Assembly (NCBI GenBank): GCA_016288155.1
Contig: JAEEYP010000063.1
Coordinates: 1 to 64,000, forward strand
Direction of reading: 5' to 3'
Source of the DNA: Clostridiales bacterium
Lineage (GTDB): Bacteria; Bacillota; Clostridia; Oscillospirales; CAG-272
DNA: 64,000 bases
Shown: piece after piece, positions 32,305-37,082 of the stretch
Numbering within the stretch: position 1 is the stretch's first letter
Layout of the letters: the number at the start of each line of letters is the position of its first letter
The notes under the pieces: model-generated
What the model was told of the DNA's origin: nothing
The model's input: the letters and a program-made list of their open reading frames with translations, nothing else
The model's database searches: none
Translations under genes and position numbers: made by a program

Positions 32305-33102
32305 ATGAACGAACGGTACTTCCGCCTCCTCGGCGGACTCATGTGTATCCTTCTTCTCCTCGCCGGCTGCGGCCGTACCGCCGCCGTGATGGCGGAACCG
32401 TCTTCCGGGATCTGGCGTGAAAGCGTCCTTGCTTCCGACGATACCGGCGGCACGGGAGATCGGGGCGGCACCGCGGCGGATCCGGCCGTGACGGATACCA
32501 CGCCCGTGATCTGCGTCGACCCGGGACACGGCTTCGGCGACAACGGCACGTATTCCGATCTGCTCGGCGAACTGTACGAAAAGGACGTCACTCTCGCCAT
32601 CGGTCTCATGCTGCGGGACGAGCTGGAGGCGCGCGGGTTCCGCGTGCTTCTGACCCATGACGGCGAGACTTTCCCGAAGGCGGAGAACGACGACGGGAAC
32701 GATCTTTTCCGTCCGCAGGAACGGATCGCGTACGTAAAGACGAAAAAGATCGATTACTACGTATCGATCCACTGCGATTCCTATGAGGACATTGCTTCCG
32801 TCAACGGTACGCGGATCTATTACAGCGCCGATACGAAGCATACGAAACAGTCCGCCAAGGTCGCCGAGGCGATCTGTAAAGCGATCAACGCCGCGCAGCC
32901 GGACGCGAAGAAGACGACCGTCACCGAGATGAAGTACGATCAGGCGTATTACGTGATCCGCGAGGCGCCGGTACCTGCCGCGCTCATCGAGGTCGGCTTC
33001 GTCACGAACCCGATGGATGCAAAGAATATGACCGATCCGGCATGGCAGGCGCTCATTGCCGCCGCCATCGCAGAGGGGATCGGAGCGTACTTCACGGATT
33101 AG
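32305..33102 (+). CDS. N-acetylmuramoyl-L-alanine amidase lipoprotein
   Basis: 265 residues: a lipoprotein signal with lipobox LAGC (cleavage before Cys near residue 22), a Gly/Asp-rich linker, and an Amidase_3 domain with the zinc ligands in CVDPGHG, the Glu in GELYEKD, the His in VSIHCDS and the catalytic Glu in ALIEVGFVTN. It cleaves the MurNAc-L-Ala bond of peptidoglycan at the outer membrane face. The ATG at 32305 is chosen for the AGGAG 10 nt upstream; an earlier ATG (32287) overlaps the capA-like stop as ATGA. A weak hairpin (33109-33130) then CGGGGTTTT follows the gene. Confidence 0.92.
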   Translation: MNERYFRLLGGLMCILLLLAGCGRTAAVMAEPSSGIWRESVLASDDTGGTGDRGGTAADPAVTDTTPVICVDPGHGFGDNGTYSDLLGELYEKDVTLAIGLMLRDELEARGFRVLLTHDGETFPKAENDDGNDLFRPQERIAYVKTKKIDYYVSIHCDSYEDIASVNGTRIYYSADTKHTKQSAKVAEAICKAINAAQPDAKKTTVTEMKYDQAYYVIREAPVPAALIEVGFVTNPMDAKNMTDPAWQALIAAAIAEGIGAYFTD

Positions 33103-33148
33103 TAGAGAAATCCCGACGAGATTTCCGGGGTTTTATGTAAAAACGATA

Positions 33149-33177
33149 TTGATTTTTTCGCCATTTCGCATTATAAT
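33149..33177 (+). promoter_or_regulatory. Promoter of the prs leader
   Basis: TTGATT (33149-33154), 17-nt spacer, TATAAT (33172-33177). Transcription from here gives an untranslated leader of about 235 nt before prs. The intergenic region 33103-33419 holds this promoter, a 6-bp hairpin (33195-33200 with 33205-33210), the candidate leader peptide and a terminator. Confidence 0.85.
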
Positions 33178-33227
33178 GTTTGTGTAAGGATTTGCTGTCG
33201 GTTTCGGCAGTCGGATACGAGGGGATT

Positions 33228-33317
33228 ATGACGGAGACGGTCTTTCATATTTATGTCCGGATGAAGGCGATGGGAACGTCCTCTTTCTGCCTCTGTGCGC
33301 CTGTGGCTGTGCCATGA
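33228..33317 (+). CDS. Candidate 29-codon leader peptide upstream of prs
   Basis: ATG at 33228 with GAGGGG a few nt upstream opens a 29-codon frame (starting MTETVFHIYVRMKAM and ending CAPVAVP) that stops TGA at 33315-33317, 2 nt before the 5' arm of an intrinsic terminator. The placement is that of a transcription-attenuation leader peptide. No run of one amino acid points to a specific charged tRNA. CCTCTTT (33280-33286) within it could pair with GAAGGGG (33324-33330) as an antiterminator. It could also be a chance frame. Confidence 0.4.
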   Translation: MTETVFHIYVRMKAMGTSSFCLCAPVAVP

Positions 33318-33319
33318 CG

Positions 33320-33345
33320 GGGAGAAGGGGGACTTCTCCCTTTTT
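33320..33345 (+). terminator. Intrinsic terminator inside the prs leader (attenuator)
   Basis: GGGAGAAG (33320-33327), loop of 5, CTTCTCCC (33333-33340), then five T. It lies 75 nt before prs and downstream of the only clear promoter, so prs expression must involve read-through. Two copies of CCGTGCGG (33353-33360, 33363-33370) follow it. Confidence 0.85.
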
Positions 33346-33419
33346 CTGTCGTCCGTGCGGGACCGTGCGGCATACGTATTTCGTCACCGTTGCCTGAATT
33401 TCAAAAAAGGGGAAAGACA

Positions 33420-34577
33420 ATGAAGGAGAGATTGTTCGGAGAACTCGCCGTGATCGGCATGAGCGGATGCGAAAACTTCGTGCAGTGTGTTGACAGTTAT
33501 CTGAAAGAATGGCGCAAGGACGACCCGGACGCGCCGGAGACGTATCTCATCGACGCAGACTGCCCCCGCTTCGGCTCCGGAGAGGCAAAAGCGCTCATCC
33601 ATCAGTCCATGCGCGGCAAGGACGTGTATATCGTCACGGACTGCTTCAACTACGGCGTGACCTACGAGATGCGCGGCATGCGCGTTCCCATGAGTCCGGA
33701 CGATCATTTCCAGGACCTCAAACGGGTGATCGCCGCCATCGAGGGCAAGGCGCACCGCGTGTCCGTTATCATGCCGATGCTCTACGAGGGACGTCAGCAC
33801 AACCGTTCCTCGCGCGAGTCGCTCGACTGCGCGCTGGCGCTTCAGGAACTTGCCAACATGGGTGTCTCCAATATCATCACCTTCGACGCGCACGACGCGC
33901 GCGTGCAGAACGCGATCCCCCTCATCGGCTTCGACAACGTCCGTCCGACCTATCAGATGCTCAAGGCGCTCGTGAAAGAATTCCCGGATATCTCCTTGTC
34001 TCACGATCAGATCATGATCATATCCCCGGACGAAGGCGCGATGTCCCGCTGCATGTACTATTCCTCCGTGATGGGCGTCGATATCGGCATGTTCTATAAG
34101 CGCCGCAATTACGCCGTGATCGTCAACGGCAAGAATCCGATCGAGGCGCACGAATACCTCGGCAAGGATATCCGCGAGAAGGACGTCGTCGTCGTCGACG
34201 ACATGATCTCCTCCGGCGAGTCCATTCTGGACGTTTCCATGCAGCTCAAGGCGAAGGGGGCGCGCCGGATCTTCCTCTTCGTCTCCTTCGGTCTCTTCTG
34301 CAACGGTCTGGAACTGTTCGACCGTGCCTATGAGGACGGGATCATCACCAAGGTCTTTACGACGAATCTGGTCTACGGACCGCCGGAACTTCTGGCGCGT
34401 CCGTGGTACTGTCAGGTCAATATGTGCAAGTACGTGTCGTATATCATCGATACGCTGAATCACGACGCATCGATCAGCGAGCTTCTCAATCCGGTCCAGC
34501 GCATCCACGCGCTGCTCGAACGCCAGTCGGAAAAACTGGGCGAGGCGGAACAGCTGCCGCTGATCAGTAAGGAGTAA
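33420..34577 (+). CDS. prs: Ribose-phosphate pyrophosphokinase (long clostridial form)
   Basis: 385 residues. The PRPP-binding loop VVVVDDMISSGESILDV is near residue 260, and GEAKALIHQSMRGKDVY and FDAHDARVQNAIP match the ribose-phosphate/ATP-binding halves of PRPP synthetase. The enzyme makes PRPP for purine, pyrimidine, His, Trp and NAD synthesis. It is longer than the about 315-residue Bacillus Prs, with N- and C-terminal extensions typical of a second clostridial Prs group. AAAAGGGG precedes the ATG. The leader with its terminator suggests transcriptional attenuation. Confidence 0.9.
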   Translation: MKERLFGELAVIGMSGCENFVQCVDSYLKEWRKDDPDAPETYLIDADCPRFGSGEAKALIHQSMRGKDVYIVTDCFNYGVTYEMRGMRVPMSPDDHFQDLKRVIAAIEGKAHRVSVIMPMLYEGRQHNRSSRESLDCALALQELANMGVSNIITFDAHDARVQNAIPLIGFDNVRPTYQMLKALVKEFPDISLSHDQIMIISPDEGAMSRCMYYSSVMGVDIGMFYKRRNYAVIVNGKNPIEAHEYLGKDIREKDVVVVDDMISSGESILDVSMQLKAKGARRIFLFVSFGLFCNGLELFDRAYEDGIITKVFTTNLVYGPPELLARPWYCQVNMCKYVSYIIDTLNHDASISELLNPVQRIHALLERQSEKLGEAEQLPLISKE

Positions 34578-34586
34578 CGCAGCCCT

Positions 34587-36299
34587 ATGCTTCCATTCAA
34601 ACGATCCATTGCGCACGTGATCGCATGTGCCGCCGCTTCGCGCTGGCCGCATGCCGGTCTCACGGATGAAACGATCCTCGAAATGCTCGAGTACCCTCCC
34701 GACGACGGGATGGGGGATCTCGCGCTGCCGTGCTTCAAGCTGAGCCGCACGCTGCGCGCCGCGCCGCCGTCTATCGCCGCGGCGCTTGCCGAGGCGCTCG
34801 GCGATTTATCCGCCGCCGACGTATCGGCAGCGGGCGGATATCTGAACTTCCGCATGAGCCGTGCGTATCTGACGGATCACGTGCTCGCCTCCATTGAAGC
34901 ACGGGACGAGCGCTACGGCGCCGGTGAGAGCGGAGCGGGGAAGACGGTCGTGCTCGATTATTCCTCGCCCAACGTGTGCAAGCCGTTTCATATCGGTCAC
35001 CTCGGCACGACGGTCATCGGTCATTCGCTGAAGCTCATTCACGAATTCCTCGGCTACCGCTGCGTCGGCGTCAATTATCTGGGCGACTGGGGGACGCAGT
35101 TCGGCAAGCAGATCGTGGCATTCAAGCGCTGGGGCGACCGAGAGACCGTGGAAGCGGGCGGCTGTGACGAGCTGGTGCGTCTGTATGTGAAGTTCCACGA
35201 AGAGGCGGAAAAGGATCCCGCGCTGGAGGACGAGGCGAGAGCCGAATTCCACAAGCTGGAGACGGGCGACGAGGAAAATTATGCGCTTTGGAAATGGTTT
35301 GTCGACGTCTCGCTCGCGGAATACCAGAAAACCTACCGGCAGCTCGACATCAAGTTCGATTACTATCTCGGCGAATCATTCGCTGTCGATAAGGTACCTG
35401 CGCAGGTGGATCGGCTGCGCGATCTCGGCCTCCTGAAAATCGACGATGGTGCTTCGATCGTCGATCTCACGGAGTACAATATGCCTCCGTGCCTGATCCT
35501 TAAAAAGGATGGTTCGACCATCTATCATGCGCGTGATATTGCAACGGCCGTATACCGGAAAAACACGTATGATTTCGATTTGGCGATCTACGTCACCTCC
35601 GCTCAGCAGAGCCTGCATTTTGCGCAGTTGTTCAAGGTCCTCGAGCTGATGGGCTACGACTGGCACGACAAATTGGTTCACGTCCCCTACGGGACGGTCT
35701 CCGTGGACGGCGCCAAGCTGGCGACCCGTACCGGAAACGTTGTTCTGCTCAAAGATCTCTTCCGCCTTTCCATCGAAAAGGTGCGGGAGATCATGGAGGT
35801 AAAGAACCCGAATCTCGCCGACAAGGACGGCGTCGCCGAAGCGGTCGGCGTCGGGGCGATCATCTTCTACTATCTGTACAACAGCCGCATCAAAGACATC
35901 AACTTCACGCTGGAGCAGGCGCTCAGCTTTGAGGGGAGCACCGGACCGTACGCGCAGTACACCTACGCACGGACGTGCAGTATCCTCGAAAAGGCGGGCG
36001 GCGTGCCGGAGGAGGGGACGGTGCAGCTCACCGCACCGGAGGAATCCGCCTTGCTCGTCGTGCTTTCCAAATTTCCCGAGAAGGTCCAGACGGCCGCCGC
36101 ACAGTATGAGCCGTCCGTCATCACGCGGTATATCATCGAGGTGTGCACCGCGTTCAACCGGTTCTACCAGAATTGCCCGATCCTGTCGGCGGAGGACGCG
36201 GCGGTGCGCGCCGCGCGCGTCCGGCTTACCCGCGCCGCGGGGATCGTGCTCCGCAACGCGCTGCATCTCATCTGCCTCAAAACGCCGGAAAAGATCTGA
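34587..36299 (+). CDS. argS: Arginyl-tRNA synthetase
   Basis: A 570-residue class I synthetase: N-terminal additional domain, HIGH motif in KPFHIGHLGTT near residue 130, a degenerate KMSKS region (VDGAKLATRTGN), and the C-terminal DALR anticodon-binding domain starting near GSTGPYAQYTYAR. It charges tRNA-Arg. It is 9 nt downstream of prs. Argininosuccinate genes are far away at 60831-63488. Confidence 0.97.
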   Translation: MLPFKRSIAHVIACAAASRWPHAGLTDETILEMLEYPPDDGMGDLALPCFKLSRTLRAAPPSIAAALAEALGDLSAADVSAAGGYLNFRMSRAYLTDHVLASIEARDERYGAGESGAGKTVVLDYSSPNVCKPFHIGHLGTTVIGHSLKLIHEFLGYRCVGVNYLGDWGTQFGKQIVAFKRWGDRETVEAGGCDELVRLYVKFHEEAEKDPALEDEARAEFHKLETGDEENYALWKWFVDVSLAEYQKTYRQLDIKFDYYLGESFAVDKVPAQVDRLRDLGLLKIDDGASIVDLTEYNMPPCLILKKDGSTIYHARDIATAVYRKNTYDFDLAIYVTSAQQSLHFAQLFKVLELMGYDWHDKLVHVPYGTVSVDGAKLATRTGNVVLLKDLFRLSIEKVREIMEVKNPNLADKDGVAEAVGVGAIIFYYLYNSRIKDINFTLEQALSFEGSTGPYAQYTYARTCSILEKAGGVPEEGTVQLTAPEESALLVVLSKFPEKVQTAAAQYEPSVITRYIIEVCTAFNRFYQNCPILSAEDAAVRAARVRLTRAAGIVLRNALHLICLKTPEKI

Positions 36300-36350: not shown

Positions 36351-37082
36351 ATGTCAGGACACAGCAAATGGAACAATATCAAGAATAAAAAAGCGAAGAC
36401 CGACGCCCAGAAGGGCAAGGTATTCACGAAGATCGGCAAAGAGATCGCCATCGCCGTCCGCGAGGGCGGTCCGGATCCGAACGGGAACAGCAAGCTCCGC
36501 GAACTGATCGCCAAGGCGAAGGCGAACAACGTGCCGAACGACAACATCGACCGCGCTATCAAAAAGGCGAGCAGCGCCGGCGCCGTCGAGTACGAGGAGA
36601 TCATCTACGAGGGATATGGACCGAGCGGCGTCGCCGTGATCGTGGAGACCGCGACGGACAGCCGCAACCGCACCGCATCCGATATGCGCCACTATTTCGA
36701 CAAATACGGCGGAAATCTCGGACAGAACGGATGCGTTTCCTTCCTCTTTGAGGACAAAGGCGTGATCGTCATCCTCCGCGAAGACGGCGTCGACGAAGAC
36801 GCGCTCATGGAGGACGCGCTCGAAGCGGGCGCCGCCGACTTCTCCGCCGACGAAGAGGCGTTCGAGATCCTGACGGAAACGGACGATCTGTACGCCGTGC
36901 GCGACGCGCTCCAGGAAAAAGGCTACGTGATCGAATCCGCGGAGGAGGACAAGATCCCCTCGACGTACGTCACGCTCACCGCGGAGGAAGACATCAAGAA
37001 CATGCGCCTTCTTCTCGAACATCTGGACGACTGCGACGACGTCAGCGAAGTATACCATAACTGGGAGAACGAGGAAGAATAA
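36351..37082 (+). CDS. yebC: YebC/PmpR-family protein (TACO1 homologue)
   Basis: 243 residues with the invariant start MSGHSKWNNIKNKKAKTDA and the three-domain YebC fold; the middle has YEGYGPSGVAVIVE. YebC proteins were described as transcription regulators and more recently as translation factors easing ribosome stalling at proline-rich stretches. The next gene encodes a Pro/Gln-rich protein, perhaps by coincidence. AAAGGA precedes the ATG. Confidence 0.96.
   Translation: MSGHSKWNNIKNKKAKTDAQKGKVFTKIGKEIAIAVREGGPDPNGNSKLRELIAKAKANNVPNDNIDRAIKKASSAGAVEYEEIIYEGYGPSGVAVIVETATDSRNRTASDMRHYFDKYGGNLGQNGCVSFLFEDKGVIVILREDGVDEDALMEDALEAGAADFSADEEAFEILTETDDLYAVRDALQEKGYVIESAEEDKIPSTYVTLTAEEDIKNMRLLLEHLDDCDDVSEVYHNWENEEE

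Follow-up and report, generated by a model that had tools for sequence, protein, structure and literature searches.

In the 64,000-nt stretch of DNA analysed here (the window), the prs-argS-yebC operon is probably controlled by a ribosome-coupled transcription attenuator in which an MKxMG-GGA block within a leader peptide is the likely control point, a reading to which we assign a probability of about 0.6. The stop codon of a tiny ORF touches an intrinsic terminator and a five-residue signature in this ORF is kept in five gut bacteria, so ribosomes probably decide whether prs is transcribed. PRPP synthetase supplies purine, pyrimidine, histidine, tryptophan and NAD synthesis.

Leader cassette upstream of prs

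The initial annotation had described a promoter, a Shine-Dalgarno sequence with a 29-codon frame, a terminator and then prs, with the terminator stem beginning 2 nt past the stop codon of the frame, and this layout is borne out by the sequence (Table 1). The promoter is the sole sigma-70-like site detected within 32800-33800, and the terminator reads GGGGAGAAG-GGGGA-CTTCTCCCT followed by a T-run, its stem occupying 33319-33341. As for the downstream genes, the prs of the window is distant from the classical PRPP synthetases of 310-320 aa and is matched only weakly in several other genomes of the order, while the third gene of the presumed operon is one that we take, from its sequence, to belong to the YebC/PmpR family.

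Table 1. Features of the prs leader and of the genes that follow it (window coordinates)
Feature	Position	Strand	Basis
Inverted-repeat-like element GTTTTATGTAAAAA, just 5' of -35	33130..33143	+	Same promoter, 5/5 species
Sigma-70-type promoter, TTGATT-17-TATAAT, 10/12	33149..33177	+	TTGATT..TATAAT identical in 5/5 genomes
Shine-Dalgarno of leader ORF, GAGGGG	33219..33224	+	Sequence; in-frame SD and ATG in 5/5 species
Leader ORF, 29 codons/29 aa, MTETVFHIYVRMKAMGTSSFCLCAPVAVP*	33228..33317	+	Sequence and genus comparison
Conserved block ATGAAGGCGATGGGA, encoding MKAMG (genus: MK[N/A]MG)	33261..33275	+	Peptide/codon comparison
Predicted antiterminator strand GTCCTCTTTCTGCCTC, window only	33278..33293	+	Predicted fold; absent in relatives
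Intrinsic terminator, 9-bp stem, about -15 kcal/mol, T-run	33319..33347	+	Predicted; conserved 5/5
Shine-Dalgarno of prs, AAGGGG	33408..33413	+	Sequence
prs, ribose-phosphate diphosphokinase, PRK06827 type, 385 aa	33420..34577	+	Pfam/NCBIfam
argS, begins 9 nt past prs	34587..36299	+	Same order in relatives
YebC/PmpR-family gene (presumed), next in presumed operon	36351..37082	+	Same order in L033, L034

The window was compared with four further species of the genus (G001 to G004) found by whole-genome search, which brings the genus to five known species, all represented by fragmented assemblies, and prs loci on the minus strand were re-oriented beforehand; the relatives include Clostridia bacterium RGIG4529 (L033, a roe deer MAG) and Oscillospiraceae bacterium SIG701 (L034, a MAG). 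All five species carry before prs the promoter core, a Shine-Dalgarno sequence, an in-frame leader ORF and a terminator with a GGGAGA stem. The cassette directly follows the promoter in the window and G004; in G001 (L034), G002 (L003) and G003 (L005) a gene that we assign by its sequence to the AEC transporter family lies between the two, its stop codon preceding the leader ORF by some tens of nucleotides. The cassette is thus kept before prs as a unit even when it has become intercistronic, which counts in favour of attenuation. A covariance model built from the four relatives picked out the correct position in the window, but with a score of only 22 bits (E=0.06 in 64 kb). Neither the intercistronic location downstream of a transporter gene, seen in three species, nor the MKxMG signature and the genus restriction described below were part of the initial annotation.

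All five species share the promoter TTGATTTT...TATAAT and, upstream of it, an element TTTTATGnAAAA, the most diverged copy of the latter being that of G004. In the window, this inverted repeat (GTTTTATGnAAAAC-like, 33130-33156) adjoins the -35 box, and it is kept at the prs promoter throughout the genus. It is possibly an operator or an UP element; as the operator of a wider regulon it was rejected, genome-wide matches showing no enrichment over a reversed-pattern control. Past the terminator, no promoter was found before prs in the window or G001, which counts in favour of attenuation. A promoter-like site, possibly an extra promoter, is present in this interval in G004 and weaker ones in G002 and G003, and these count against it.

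Leader peptide signature and predicted folding

The five leader peptides (MTETVFHIYVRMKAMGTSSFCLCAPVAVP in the window, then MFSALLIHMAAMKNMGYLYACGQISGII, MLHSIFVSSMKNMGQYGYVYSFSEYL, MSVCAAHMICPMKNMGFLSVFVKTE and MLYNSSVSTMKNMGITGEVYAFGASCPRDL) are 25-30 aa long and cannot be aligned except for MK[N/A]MG, where all of them share four identities in a five-residue window. Not one of 20,000 residue shuffles of the five peptides reached even three identities. Outside this block, resemblance is near-random between most pairs (only G002 and G003 are somewhat alike), and shared ancestry alone therefore leaves the block without explanation. The comparison of prs leaders proposed in the initial annotation brings out a conserved peptide signature, and the leader frame, whose breakage in close relatives was named there as a refutation, is intact in them. 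The glycine codon of the block is GGA in all five species, although GGA makes up 15-22% of glycine codons in prs, argS and yebC (where available), so that codon choice or the RNA itself may be constrained in addition to the peptide. The C-terminal region of AEC also reads KNMG (IMAKNMGSD), and an origin of the leader from it was considered, but the likeness is probably a coincidence.

The position of the frame also appears constrained. An in-frame Shine-Dalgarno sequence and ATG are present in all five species (less than 1% of flank shuffles per species), and in each the first in-frame stop codon falls no more than 13 nt before the stem (6-15% of shuffles per species), the actual distances being 1, 4, 5, 7 and 11 nt. 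The MKxMG/GGA block lies 41-55 nt upstream of the terminator stem, and 10-17 codons, variable among species, separate it from the stop codon. None of the five peptides contains a run of codons for one sensed amino acid or an Arg-x-Arg-type stall motif (RLR/RYR).

The terminator stem GGGAGAA is common to all five species, and no other conserved helix was found in their leaders. The 5' hairpin of the initial annotation, near 33190-33216, is not evident in G004, the other promoter-proximal leader. Similar small hairpins between terminator and prs can be drawn by eye in all five, for which RNAalifold gave no common structure. As for the antiterminator proposed initially, in which CCTCTTT inside the frame pairs with GAAGGGG, predicted window folds do pair this strand with the 5' arm of the terminator, but the four relatives have no counterpart, so that folding predicts an antiterminator in the window alone and none conserved across the five species. 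What survives of the translation-coupled attenuation suggested there is a conserved leader ORF coupled to a terminator before prs, and not the antiterminator.

The effect of a translating ribosome was modelled in the five leaders by removing, codon by codon, the RNA up to its leading edge. In the four relatives, the terminator is predicted to fold unless a ribosome covers it (P about 0.98): it forms at nearly every ribosome position (P about 0.94-1.0) and is lost when the ribosome occupies the stop codon or roughly the final one to three codons. For the window, the predicted antiterminator dominates in ribosome-free RNA, unlike in the relatives, and the untranslated state may therefore differ there; the terminator can form again with a ribosome at codons 15-26, whereas a ribosome at codons 27-30 covers it. 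Common to all five in these predictions is that a ribosome just past MKxMG leads to termination, and one at the end of the ORF to readthrough.

Distribution within and beyond the genus

The cassette is restricted to this genus in the samples searched. Among 77 prs loci from GTDB species with enough upstream sequence, an MKxMG ORF was found in genus members only; in most of the other loci the 5' leader is short and no terminator separates the promoter from prs. When 295 family genomes were searched by pattern, true matches came from the five genus species alone, once each (a match in L130 was a chance overlap), and in a 391-genome class sample no cassette was found in other genera by a pattern search that, since it demands an xA[C/T] middle codon and TTTTT, would miss variants and does miss the window itself. 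Each genus genome has a single copy, at prs; other ATGAARNNNATGGGA matches in the genus, considered as possible second copies, sit in long frames or in short frames lacking the ORF-terminator layout.

A different RNA element is found between the upstream gene and prs in sister genera, at seven loci (L054, L062, L071, L087, L091, L093 and L096; 2912-2970 in L087), with a further copy upstream of prs in L166 (G032:C5:63647-63705). Its CUGAC/GUCAG hairpin bears the loop GAAAAAUNACC and is accompanied by a second hairpin and by the tail AAUUGGGGA; a loop CCY could pair with a GGG of the tail as a pseudoknot. Across the seven loci, pairing is kept in 100% of the sequences at 12 pairs, and double changes occur at six of the seven P2 pairs, a covariation far above slid and shuffled controls. 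A model of the element recovers the seven and, in 146 genomes, the copy before prs in G032. A search of Rfam gave no match for this two-hairpin RNA. It is a candidate for an orphan riboswitch or other cis-regulatory RNA of prs.

Possible mechanism, rival readings and known attenuators

A simple scenario can be outlined in which transcription would begin at the conserved promoter and the short leader ORF would be translated. A ribosome reaching the last codons or the stop would cover the 5' arm of the terminator, allowing RNA polymerase to continue into prs, whereas if translation were absent, late or held at MKxMG/GGA, the hairpin would fold and transcription would end. MKxMG-GGA would most likely set a pause or a nascent-chain arrest, making the outcome responsive to a signal. 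That a ribosome can act in this way is illustrated in E. coli, where termination fell from about 90% to less than 10%, in a translation-dependent manner, once a stop codon had been shifted to 5 bp upstream of a terminator (PMC4824070). The main general objection comes from B. subtilis, in which RNA polymerase runs ahead of the ribosome (PMC9226507). Such runaway transcription weakens steric coupling unless the polymerase pauses, and the prs leader would require a pause if its host behaved likewise. Also speaking against attenuation are the lack of a conserved antiterminator helix, which belongs to the classical trp/his and vmlR designs but is not needed for steric coupling, the lack of a run of a sensed amino acid, a trait of amino-acid-sensing designs only, and the ribosome-free fold predicted for the window. 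That MKxMG-GGA might be a new metabolite-responsive arrest signal for PRPP or nucleotide status, feeding back on PRPP synthetase through attenuation, is a speculative extension that we consider doubtful.

Four other readings of the same cassette are less likely. The ORF might only bring a ribosome beside the terminator, the signal being polymerase speed (UTP or another NTP) as in pyrBI/pyrE, with another role or none for MKxMG. The stop codon right before the terminator in all five species, the role of prs in nucleotide synthesis and the U-rich stretches visible 5' of the stem in G002 and G004 would fit, but no such stretch is visible in the window or G001 and the conserved MKxMG/GGA block is left without explanation; this reading is unlikely. 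Quite unlikely too is a small-protein gene expressed constitutively, or a mere spacer, followed by a terminator through which fixed readthrough would set prs dosage or the AEC:prs ratio: it agrees with a terminator that is stable in nearly all predicted states of the relatives and with the location of the cassette between AEC and prs in three species, but an ordinary small protein would hardly be so divergent and yet keep a strict five-residue signature, and the stop-terminator spacing is constrained.

The 15-nt block ATGAARNNNATGGGA could also be an RNA or DNA site (for a protein, an sRNA or a structure) in which the reading frame is incidental. The invariant GGA, despite its low share among glycine codons, speaks for such a site, as does a GGGA that could pair with UCCC in the 3' arm of the terminator. 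However, pairing of the block with this arm or the U-tract, although it can be drawn by eye for some of the species, cannot be drawn for the window and in most species is no better than in shuffled sequences, the Lys codon varies, as does the third base of the Asn codon, in the manner of coding sequence, and the in-frame Shine-Dalgarno sequence and ATG are universal in the genus; we regard this as very unlikely. Least probable is the small-molecule riboswitch (PRPP/ykkC class or new) that the initial annotation had offered as an alternative. A metabolic gene with a 5' leader ending in a terminator is where one might be sought, but with a threshold as loose as E=10 the leader gave no Rfam match beyond chance hits to lncRNA families, the covariance models for PRPP/ykkC riboswitches and other cis-elements included; the window leader is no more stable than its shuffles (z about -1.1), and the terminator is the only conserved helix.

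Ribosome-coupled attenuation, the reading we favour, has clear parallels. The pyrBI and pyrE attenuators of enteric bacteria are cases of translation-coupled attenuation and, as here, they have, upstream of a nucleotide-synthesis gene, a leader ORF that ends close to or at an intrinsic terminator, so that a ribosome beside the stop would mask the hairpin; the prs leader differs in its MKxMG signature, its Bacillota host, its gene and the lack of a consistent U-rich pause tract. TnaC and SpeFL are metabolite-sensing arrest peptides that share with the prs leader a poorly conserved sequence with few invariant residues. Both arrest and ligand are putative in the prs leader, and its variable MKxMG-to-stop distance makes it unlikely that arrest occurs at the stop codon with fixed tunnel contacts, as in TnaC. 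In Bacillota, vmlR, bmrCD and hflXr likewise have a short ORF 5' of an intrinsic terminator at which ribosome position decides readthrough, and combine antiterminator/anti-antiterminator switching with antibiotic stalling, at an RLR motif in hflXr (PMC9226507; PMC6310831), whereas the relatives of the window have neither an antiterminator nor an RLR-type motif. With the ykkC PRPP riboswitch the prs leader shares a tie to PRPP metabolism but no covariance-model match. Leader-peptide attenuation of prs was not found in literature searches, in which coverage of subscription papers was limited. To our knowledge, the leader-peptide attenuators of Bacillota are mostly antibiotic sensors, and an attenuator of a housekeeping gene whose peptide signature is both minimal and new, in a conserved block short enough to be tested directly by mutation, would represent an additional class of translational sensor and bear on whether ribosome-polymerase coupling controls metabolism in lineages where such coupling is supposedly weak.
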